NCBI RefSeq assembly: GCF_036226365.1
Contig: NZ_CP108462.1
Coordinates: forward strand, 9,594,501-9,658,500
Source: Streptomyces sp. NBC_01262
GTDB lineage: Bacteria; Actinomycetota; Actinomycetes; Streptomycetales; Streptomycetaceae
Length of the DNA: 64,000 nt
Direction of reading: 5' to 3'
Shown: positions 22,240 to 24,372 of the stretch, one piece after another
Layout of the letters: every line of letters begins with the position of its first letter
How positions within the stretch are numbered: the stretch's first letter is position 1
The notes under the pieces: generated by a model
Told to the model about the DNA's origin: nothing
Seen by the model: only the letters and a program-made list of their open reading frames with translations
Databases searched by the model: none
Translations under genes and position numbers: made by a program

Positions 22240-22541
22240 CTATCCGGCCTCAGCGGCCTGCTTCGGCAAGCCCTTCTGTTCACCGCCATACGCGCGTCCA
22301 CGAGGTCCTCGCGCGCGACGGTGGCCCACCAGTCGTCCACCGCGATCCGCCCCGCCAGATCCCGTAGCCGCTCCCGCAGCCCCGCCATCTGGTCCAGCTG
22401 CTCCGTAGTCCAGGGCCGGCCGCCGATCTCGGGATCGATCGGCGGGGTGGGGATCGCTTCGAGCTCGGCTTCGGTGGCGTACCACTCCTGCTGCAGCAGG
22501 ATGATCCGGTCCGGGACGTCGAAAACCTTGGGTTCGGCCAT
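22240..22541 (-). pseudogene. Small hypothetical gene with probable frameshift
   Basis: Starts at ATG 22539-22541 (MAEPKVFDVPDRIILLQQEW) and reads a natural, charged helical protein to DARMAVNR. After that the same frame runs into unnatural Arg/Ser-rich residues as far as 22023, while the neighbouring frame gives KQAAEAG and a stop at 22240. A one-base shift near 22280 would restore a compact ~95-residue protein. Function unknown. Confidence 0.5.
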
Positions 22542-22592
22542 GATGCGATCGTACGTTCGACACGAAGGCGCGCTGCGCGCGGCACGAGCCCG

Positions 22593-22628
22593 GGTGTCCG
22601 TTCTCACCCAAGTCAGCCGCCGTCTCAT
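22593..22628 (-). repeat. 36-bp inverted repeat, left copy
   Basis: Read on the minus strand it matches 23262-23297 on the plus strand at 35 of 36 positions (from ATGAGACGGCGGCTG to GAACGGACACC). The two copies point away from each other and flank the gene at 22776-23216. Confidence 0.85.
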
Positions 22629-22775
22629 TGTCCGGCCGCGCAGAGGACGTCCGTCGCCGACTTGCCCGGAAGGCGTCCACGAGTCACGGACATGGGTGAT
22701 TGCGTCGGATAACCTCCCAACGCGACAAACGCGACATGACGGCCGGTCAGTGCCGGTCCTTCCGACAGGGGATTT

Positions 22776-23216
22776 ATGAGCACCGTCACTGAGTCCGCGG
22801 CCCCGGCTGACGAGCTGACCCACGCCGCCGCGCTCACCCAGGCTGACGTCGACGCACTGGAAGCCTTCCTCAGCGCGCAGTTCGACGCGCTGCGATCCGC
22901 GAACCACGTCTCCAGCGACGCGTACAACGCGGCGGTCGCTCTGAAGGGTGTCCTGCGGGACCTAGTCAAGCCGGTGCGCGCCTCATTCCGCTACGACGAC
23001 GGCTCGCCCGAACTGCTCCGGGCCCGAATGCGTCACTGGAACCGGCTGCGCGGCGTCGCGGAGTCCTGGGAGGACACCGACGGCTACGACCGGGGCCGCT
23101 GGGGCTATCTCACGCACCTCGACGCCTCAGAAGTAGCGAGCTCGGCGGAGTACGCACGTCGGCGCGAGGAGGAACAGGCCGCGTACGAGCGGGACCGTCT
23201 GCTGCGGAGCCTGTGA
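22776..23216 (+). CDS. Hypothetical soluble protein flanked by inverted repeats
   Basis: 146 residues from ATG 22776, with CAGGGG about eight bases upstream. Predicted largely helical, acidic N-terminus, with FRYDDGSPELLRARMRHWNR and a Glu/Arg-rich C-terminal helix. No family is recognised. It is the only gene between the two copies of the 36-bp inverted repeat, so it may be the cargo of a small mobile cassette. Confidence 0.65.
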   Translation: MSTVTESAAPADELTHAAALTQADVDALEAFLSAQFDALRSANHVSSDAYNAAVALKGVLRDLVKPVRASFRYDDGSPELLRARMRHWNRLRGVAESWEDTDGYDRGRWGYLTHLDASEVASSAEYARRREEEQAAYERDRLLRSL

Positions 23217-23261
23217 GGACGCAACATGATGCCCGCCCTTCAGGTCAGCCGACTGGATTCG

Positions 23262-23297
23262 ATGAGACGGCGGCTGGCTTGGGTGAGAACGGACACC
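23262..23297 (+). repeat. 36-bp inverted repeat, right copy
   Basis: Partner of 22593-22628. Here the repeat opens a reading frame MRRRLAWVRTDTGCICPWTA and onward with natural composition (ICDDWIECQTPW) to about 23400, where it runs into the opposite-strand gene. This frame may be the head of a truncated gene; the left copy encodes the same first ten residues. Confidence 0.8.
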
Positions 23298-23381
23298 GGG
23301 TGCATTTGTCCTTGGACAGCGAAGTTAGTCGGGGGCGACTCTCTGATCTGCGACGACTGGATTGAATGTCAAACGCCGTGG

Positions 23382-23906
23382 TCAGGTTCGCGCACGCGGG
23401 AGCAGGCGATCCAGCTCTTCACGGGCCCAGCGGCAGTGGTCCACACCGCAGGGGGTCAGACCACGCGCCTCTGCTTCGGACTCGAACTGCGTGTGGAAGG
23501 AGTCAGGATGCCGCCCGGCACCGGAGACGCGGCCGCAGCTCATGCTGTAGTGGTAGATCTTGAGGGCAGCGCCGATGGTGGTCCGAGTCCAGACAACGGG
23601 GTCGTTCCAATGGGCCCTTAGGCTTGCCTCCCGTGCTTCGAGGGCTTGACGTTCACTGGGGATCGGGTCGAGGGCGGTAGCGAAGTCCGCGCGTGCCAGT
23701 CCTCGAACGCGCTGACTCTCTCCGCTGTCTTGGAACAGGAGGCGGTCGGCGTCGGTCTCGTGAGTCATGCACCGCTCGCGGATAGCTTGCGCTGCCTGAC
23801 TGCGCCGCCGCTCGTAGGCTTCCCGATCCGCGAGAAGCTGCTTGAGCTGGCGCCCTCGGTGTTCGTTACGCCAGACGAGTAGGTCCGAAGTACTGATGAC
23901 GTCCAC
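23382..23906 (-). CDS. Hypothetical protein, HNH/zinc not evident
   Basis: 174 residues from a GTG start (23904-23906) with GGGGGAAAAG upstream, giving MDVISTSDLLVWRNEHRGRQ. The N-terminal two thirds are charged and helical (coiled-coil-like). The C-terminal part has three Cys and several His (MSCGRVSGAGRH, GLTPCGVDHCRW), a possible metal site. No family is recognised. Confidence 0.6.
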   Translation of the reverse strand: MDVISTSDLLVWRNEHRGRQLKQLLADREAYERRRSQAAQAIRERCMTHETDADRLLFQDSGESQRVRGLARADFATALDPIPSERQALEAREASLRAHWNDPVVWTRTTIGAALKIYHYSMSCGRVSGAGRHPDSFHTQFESEAEARGLTPCGVDHCRWAREELDRLLPRART

Positions 23907-24372
23907 GGTGCTTTTCCCCCTAATGCGCGTTGTGCGCGCGAGCGTACATCGCGAGCCGAGGACGGGGCCGGAGTGTGCTCGATGTGTGGACGGAGGGAAC
24001 TCCACGTCCGTGACTACCGCGACTGGGTTGGCTGACACGGAACGTCAGTCGCCAAAGTACGGTGACACGACGACTGAGTTAGGTGACAACGGACAGCATT
24101 GTCCAGTGCCACCGAGTCTTGGTCCGTTGCCATCGCAGATGAACCGAACGCGGTTTGTGACGGCGAAACCTGACCACCGCGGGTCGGCGCCGGGCGGGCC
24201 GTTCTGCGACCAGATGCGGTTGATCTCCGTTCACCTTCGCTCGACTTCCGGTCGGAGACGAAAGAATGCACTCGCTTTCCGGTTGGTTGCGGTCGGCGCC
24301 GTTCCGGAGTGCACAGGGTGGGGACCCTCAGATTGGTACACGTGTGTCCTGCCCGACGGGAGCGAGCGAGCC
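23907..24372. other. Intergenic region with phased repeats
   Basis: 466 bases between divergent genes. It contains three related TGACA elements: GCTGACAC at 24031, GGTGACAC at 24061 and GGTGACAA at 24082, 30 and 21 bases apart, roughly three and two helical turns. No gene is seen; the longer upstream extension of the next frame has no ribosome site. Confidence 0.45.

Follow-up and report, generated by a model that had tools for sequence, protein, structure and literature searches.

Two neighbouring one-gene elements with Tn7-like ends on a Streptomyces chromosome arm are probably non-autonomous mini-transposons

In laboratory mini-Tn7 vectors, cargo lying between Tn7 ends is mobilised in trans by TnsABC+D. 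The two elements described in this work differ from such vectors in being natural and in having other ends; further, the target sites differ among these elements and their relatives, and no target of the glmS type was seen. Among natural systems, the actinobacterial Tn7-like transposons (the second TnsB clade of the survey by Benler et al. 2021, PMC8649781) have in common with them a 5-bp duplication, arrays of subterminal sites of about 20 bp and asymmetric ends, and this Actinobacteria-dominated clade is presented in the main text of the survey as lacking experimental characterisation. However, the two elements differ from the transposons of that survey, for which its main text gives median lengths of 14-29 kb, in having no tns gene and in being shorter than 0.8 kb. 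Because the survey started from TnsB homologues, transposase-less elements would be missed in it, and the words 'nonautonomous', 'miniature' and 'MITE' are absent from its main text (hyphenated spelling excepted). The nearest published analogue appears to be the Tn3-derived TIMEs, which, in the passages describing them in PMC4133298, are also transposase-less, have long terminal repeats and 5-bp duplications, and carry genes or form composites; however, TIMEs have Tn3-family ends, whereas the elements described here have Tn7-like multi-site ends. MITEs, according to the relevant sections of a review (PMC10969869), are likewise short and non-autonomous with inverted ends and a target duplication, and relatives of 72, 167 and 337 bp found in this work fit this description. 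However, MITEs are usually shorter than about 500 bp, lack a gene and are present in many copies, whereas the two elements are 701 and 789 bp long and hold a gene each, and only three elements of this kind were found in their own genome. In the text of the same review Tn7 occurs only twice, as attTn7 and in a reference (PMC10969869). Integron gene cassettes are different again, as they have attC and no target duplication, whereas the elements described here have 5-bp duplications and inverted ends. A different arrangement is seen in a variant of the type I-E CRISPR systems of Streptomycetaceae, which as described in the pertinent part of PMC12231136 has tnsB and tnsC and lacks transposon ends. 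No description of natural miniature Tn7-like elements was present among the matches listed in the open-licence full-text literature (inclusive of PMC10293859).

The DNA analysed here (the window, i.e. the whole stretch of 64,000 nucleotides from Streptomyces sp. NBC_01262) sits about 78-142 kb from the right end of the chromosome. The original prediction described in it 36-bp inverted repeats, identical at 35 of 36 bases, around a single 146-codon gene, and regarded them as either a non-autonomous mobile cassette or two gene heads duplicated by inversion. Sequence comparison confirms these repeats and extends them, with the inverted arms 22590-22628 and 23262-23300 being identical at 37 of 39 bases (mismatches at 22592 and 22613). 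The outermost 5 bases of both 39-base arms are CCGGG, the direct target duplication of element 1, and as this sequence is almost its own reverse complement, the apparent inverted repeat is lengthened by it. Due to this, the element proper extends over 701 bp (Table 1), its termini being TGTCCGTTCTCA...TGAGAACGGACA, viz. TGTCC...GGACA pointing outward, with an exact CCGGG beyond them on both sides, as sought in the target-site check that had been proposed. When the arm pattern was searched for with up to 3 mismatches in 100 genomes, it was found in only one of them, the genome containing the window (9.74 Mb), in exactly those two copies, and in none of the other 99, and the reversed control pattern gave no matches across the same 100 genomes. 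The repeat was not seen solely as the coding start of one gene family, the finding that had been named as speaking against a mobile cassette. The match between the arms is not due to chance, in that the similarity to three loci in other genomes ends at or near them. Further, element 1 looks like a right-end/right-end type with one side weak, because its left end copies the outer 34 bases of the right end (33/34) and then diverges. In a type I-F3 system, two right ends allow reduced transposition but two left ends do not, according to the cited passage of a preprint (PMC13370975), and because of this a right-end/right-end element such as element 1 could move.

The three loci (L006, L007 and L008), all from other Streptomyces, were found by a search of genome contigs with the 146-residue protein. 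In L006 and L007 the DNA similarity detected by BLAST extends from 22605-22606 to 23295, and in L008 from 22566 to 23216, together with a separate right-end piece (23266-23292), the flanks being unrelated in all of them. This recurrence in other contexts, with boundaries at or near the repeats, together with the exact target duplications, upholds the suggestion of a mobile cassette. The outermost ~11 bases of the left end are missing from L006 and L007, where the right end bounds a larger unit. This unit covers 59-5520 in L007 (S. stelliscabiei), has the duplication ACTTT, and holds a 1463-residue NTPase-like ORF along with the element 1 gene. The ORF shows only weak Pfam signals below the cut-offs (NPHP3_N 0.011, Ribosomal_L17 0.022) and PADLOC gave no match for it; the designation 'NACHT-like' is our own reading, and it looks like a defence-type gene. 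The 5.5-kb composite sits upstream of valS, and a left end of this family in L006 has a group II intron reverse transcriptase (826-2643) immediately inward of it.

A second element of the same kind, which the original prediction missed along with the Tn7-like nature of the first, starts 11 bp past the end of element 1 (789 bp, duplication GCATT). Its end at 24095 was found by a degenerate search, in which the partner end at 23307 scored 20/28; the latter was spotted by eye through the shared flank GCATT and then scored. Both elements thus have paired TGTCC ends and exact 5-bp duplications. A third element, of 337 bp with the exact duplication CCGGC, is located in the same genome far from the window (C1:1700397-1700733; 5398-5734 of L080). 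To the right of element 2, the segment 24101-25061 matches a linear plasmid from Streptomyces sp. NBC_00280 with 91% identity, and this match begins at the first base past the element 2 duplication, the left side being without similarity. On the other side, the similarity of left-flank paralogues ends at 22586 (own genome 9566845, and L200 of G029), 3 bp short of the element 1 target duplication, or at 22564 (L201); the gene left of element 1 (22245-22586) is 82% identical to the stretch at 9566845, located 50 kb away on the same chromosome arm. As for the empty sites that had also been proposed as a check, none was found for element 1 or 2 among the plasmid matches and flank paralogues compared, and one was recovered in part for a related element in L017, where plasmid pSV2 (L188) is continuous through CACTACCGCGATCCGG and the right flank of L017 diverges after 4 further bases, by which pSV2 would represent only a partial empty site.

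Table 1. Positions in the window of the two elements, their ends, target duplications and cargo genes.
Feature	Position	Strand	Basis or remark
Target-site duplication, element 1, left copy (CCGGG)	22590..22594	.	Identical to 23296-23300
Element 1, 701-bp mini-element, predicted non-autonomous Tn7-like	22595..23295	.	Terminal inverted repeats, 5-bp duplication, BLAST boundaries
Left end, element 1	22595..22628	+	One terminal site, 33/34 bases as right end, then diverging
Cargo gene, element 1, 146 codons	22776..23216	+	ORF list; relatives on Streptomyces plasmids
Right end, element 1	23246..23295	-	Two direct sites 21 bp apart
Target-site duplication, element 1, right copy (CCGGG)	23296..23300	.	
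Target-site duplication, element 2, left copy (GCATT)	23302..23306	.	
Element 2, 789-bp mini-element, predicted non-autonomous Tn7-like	23307..24095	.	Paired ends and 5-bp duplication
Left end, element 2	23307..23371	+	Terminal site and inverted site at +47, the tniQ-side layout of tns-bearing elements
Probable cargo gene, element 2	23382..23906	-	ORF; GTG start at 23906 assumed
Right end, element 2	24020..24095	-	Direct sites at 0, +51 and (weakly) +21, as on the tnsA side of tns-bearing elements
Target-site duplication, element 2, right copy (GCATT)	24096..24100	.	

Plasmid searches with the end pieces (5, 11, 18, 28 and 13 records, overlapping) matched Streptomyces, the exceptions being one record from Kitasatospora and six from other genera at E>=0.4. 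An end matrix of 25 positions was trained on 48 ends, and at a score >20 it identified 77 ends (73 distinct, 4 being doubly counted via overlapping loci) in 134 loci comprising 2,402,085 bases (2.40 Mb), as against a mean of 0.25 for 20 column-permuted control matrices, this count being partly circular in that the training ends were drawn partly from the same loci. The count of target duplications is not circular, because the duplication lies outside the matrix. All left-right pairs of ends 60-12,000 bp apart were compared (n=38, no pair being doubly counted), and the target bases were identical at 5/5 positions in 19 pairs, at 4/5 in 7 and at fewer in 12; in a shifted control (1900 comparisons, shift of 6-30 bp) 5/5 was reached in 0.26% and 4/5 in 1.6%. 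Most of the 12 pairs with less than 4/5 join ends of different elements or internal sites, although one of them (L025 9209-9380, 3/5) looks like a real element. Among the 26 pairs with 4 or 5 identical bases, three mix the ends of neighbours (L028 twice, L033 once), leaving 23 elements, four of which hold tns genes or a fragment of them. Ends without a partner are present in L014, L015, L031 and L035, and also at 1355 and 3816 within the 6-kb L028 element. Where paired ends have duplications, they enclose genes for a PLP-dependent enzyme (L017), a phosphotransferase (L034) and a NACHT protein (L029), and in L028 a 6.0-kb segment with a nitrile hydratase operon and an aminoglycoside phosphotransferase-family gene; in L024 they enclose just 72 bp. 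The absence of tns genes from the plasmid elements refers to the genes listed, as the PLSDB gene tables are incomplete.

The relatives that carry tns genes were sought in two ways. Matches to PF09299 (Mu transposase C-terminal) were present in 53 of 121 family genomes, and of the 80 regions examined, 79 surround such matches and one is the third mini-element of the own genome. Strong paired ends around the transposase were found in 2 of the 79, viz. L135 (10.9 kb, TGTGA) and L143 (4.5 kb, GGGGG); those in L127 (GAGGG) were weak, and none were found in the remaining Mu-transpos_C regions; because of this, the ends are taken to belong to a part of the Mu-transpos_C group. A tblastn search with the L143 TnsB found relatives in 111 of 249 family genomes (5 candidates scored per genome) and added L172 (4.5 kb, ACACA) and L173 (3.1 kb, CCACG, with a tnsB fragment only), as well as weaker end pairs in L185 (CCAAA) and L176 (GCCGG). 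Nine loci (L116, L120, L135, L143 and L170-L174) have a TnsB 72-100% identical to that of L143, and of these four show both ends with an exact duplication, four show one end, and one, on a short contig, shows none. L143 encodes a TnsA-like nuclease, TnsB, a TniB/TnsC ATPase and TniQ (Tn7_TnsA-like_N 2e-7; rve 2e-5 with Mu-transpos_C 1e-4; TniB 6e-12; TniQ 8e-5, the rve and TniQ scores being below the Pfam cut-offs), and the full relatives thus carry tnsA, tnsB, tnsC and tniQ as do the actinobacterial Tn7-like transposons. An insert interrupts tnsB in L135, and in L172 the gene is matched as two pieces. The matrix that detected L135 and L143 had been trained solely on tns-free elements, which makes their detection the best independent test in this work; the same matrix also detected L172 and L173.

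In the genome containing the window, no relative of the L143 TnsB was found at E<=1e-20 among the 5 of 29 candidates scored. A Mu-transpos_C search of this genome (19 of 19 candidates scored) revealed two genes with equal scores and frames of 754 residues near both chromosome ends (G000/C1 33575 and 9702342); these belong to a different transposon family and were rejected as a source, the left-arm copy (L079) being without such ends around it and neither gene being a TnsB relative at the same threshold and scope. Mu-transpos_C genes near contig ends are also seen in several other family genomes. Two further candidates were set aside, viz. a six-copy Mu-transpos_C element of about 3.5 kb in G117, which is of a different family, and a Mu-transpos_C trio (L037) with no matching ends. 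As a separate observation, a plasmid (NZ_CP108855.1, L203 2761-11820) carries the type I-E genes cas3, casA, casB, cas7e, cas5e and cas6e, with no cas1/cas2 adjoining among the genes listed in its incomplete table.

The four elements enclosing tns genes or a fragment (L135, L143, L172 and L173) show a common layout, with direct sites at +20/21 and +50/51 in the end on the tnsA side and an inverted site at about +47 in that on the tniQ side. The inverted site is weak in L172 and L173, for which the side was deduced from the tnsB strand. Element 2 shows this layout in full (inverted +47 on the left, direct +51 on the right), and element 1 shows it in part (+21 on the right, a single recognisable site on the left). 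The left end of element 2 is identical at 26/28 bases to an end of L172. The best matches of the other three window ends to the tns-bearing loci are 19-20/28 (right end of element 2 at most 19/28, ends of element 1 at most 20/28), and because of this none of the three is assigned an exact partner. Both elements have the TGT/ACA termini and the 5-bp duplication that mark Tn7-like transposons, and their ends appear to be common to tns-encoding elements in pattern and layout, the left end of element 2 alone being matched closely. However, they do not have the tnsB and tnsC of their own that define an autonomous Tn7-like transposon: no tnsB/tnsC-type Pfam match is present in their ORFs, and because of this absence, and since no close TnsB was found in the genome, they are read as non-autonomous. 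Based on these features, elements 1 and 2 very probably inserted separately, each as a non-autonomous one-gene mini-transposon that belongs to an actinobacterial Tn7-like family and is moved in trans.

Other interpretations must be weighed against this one. Terminal inverted repeats with a 5-bp duplication are also found in Tn3 and in some IS families, and the elements could then be non-autonomous members of another DDE transposase family (IS21, IS481 or Tn3), which would be in keeping with the assorted IS genes in or near some copies and with the match of element 1 to tns-bearing ends at no more than 20/28. However, four elements of the same pattern with exact duplications enclose tns genes or a tnsB fragment, and the site layout is the same as in these. 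TIMEs are recognised by 38-bp Tn3-family ends, which would differ from the ends described here, these following the tns-bearing pattern. We consider an origin from such a family unlikely. The back-to-back arrangement of one-gene units between inverted sites would also be expected of a site-specific recombination cassette (integron-like, or a phase-variable inversion unit) whose recombination sites are the repeats, but 5-bp target duplications at unrelated target sites, homologues at different places, and the fact that a recombinase was recognised in neither element 1 nor element 2 make this very improbable.

The original prediction also noted that both repeat copies open with the peptide MRRRLxWVRTDT, and this is correct, in that the terminal site yields this peptide when read in one frame. 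From this observation alone, the repeats could be conserved coding sequence, the two gene heads of one family having been duplicated by inversion. However, ends of the same pattern in other Streptomycetaceae flank unrelated genes, or no gene at all in an element of 72 bp that is too short for one, duplications are present on both sides, and the reading frames belong to no Pfam family, due to which we regard duplicated gene heads as extremely improbable.

Returning to the reading of elements 1 and 2 as Tn7-like mini-transposons, their close spacing is not an isolated case. Gaps of at most 40 bp between the end of one element and the start of the next were seen in the window (11 bp), L013 (5), L026 (6), L028 (3), L033 (7) and L025 (30), with one additional weak back-to-back case at 5 bp in L028. 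When only ends with scores >20 are considered, there are 6 junctions in five loci (L013, L025, L026, L033 and the window; L026 is doubled via an internal site), whereas random placement within the loci (1000 runs) gave a mean of 0.12 junctions and a maximum of 2; these loci were chosen for holding such ends, and the comparison addresses the clustering and not its cause. The junctions suggest insertion beside existing ends, and shared hot spots are another possible source of the clustering. Classical Tn7 target immunity would not give back-to-back insertions. The junctions thereby raise the question of targeting and target immunity in a group that the main text of PMC8649781 presents as uncharacterised.

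We infer the mobility of elements 1 and 2 from their sequence, and it may have proceeded as follows. An incoming Tn7-like element would supply TnsA+TnsB with TnsC and TniQ in trans; the TnsA+TnsB transposase would bind the mini-element ends and excise the cassette by cut-and-paste; and the cassette would be inserted through a 5-bp staggered cut, with TniQ guiding the targeting. The cassette would have arrived in, or close to, a plasmid-derived part of the chromosome arm, and the 11-bp spacing of the two elements would fit a preference for sites beside existing ends. Neighbouring elements could later mobilise larger segments by pairing their outer ends, a possibility suggested by the 5.5-kb S. 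stelliscabiei composite. More tentatively, and in our estimation with somewhat less than an even chance of being correct, the linear plasmids and chromosome arms of Streptomyces may harbour a gene-cassette economy run by Tn7-like machinery, in which swarms of one-gene mini-elements insert beside each other's ends, stack in arrays and pair outer ends to form composites (e.g. with NACHT-type or nitrile hydratase genes), as a DDE counterpart of integron cassettes. Surveys starting from a transposase gene cannot detect transposase-less elements, and should such elements be common on Streptomyces plasmids, then Tn7-like machinery moves more cargo than has been counted, and single genes annotated without function gain a route of spread. 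Further, the natural ends, being defined and paired with natural one-gene cargo, could aid tool building for Streptomyces.

Regarding the cargo genes themselves, the element 2 protein has no match in the plasmid collection at 1e-5, and the element 1 protein has no Pfam or PADLOC match. Relatives of the latter with 34-40% identity are present in 13 plasmid records from Streptomyces, all of them covering less than 80% of the protein. Three plasmid contexts were inspected, of which one is close to an integrase gene, and in none of them is a function named. An AlphaFold model predicts this protein to be all-helical (mean pLDDT 62, which is weak). The comparison of its gene between the window and L006 (dN 0.048, dS 0.094) suggests that it is under mild constraint only.
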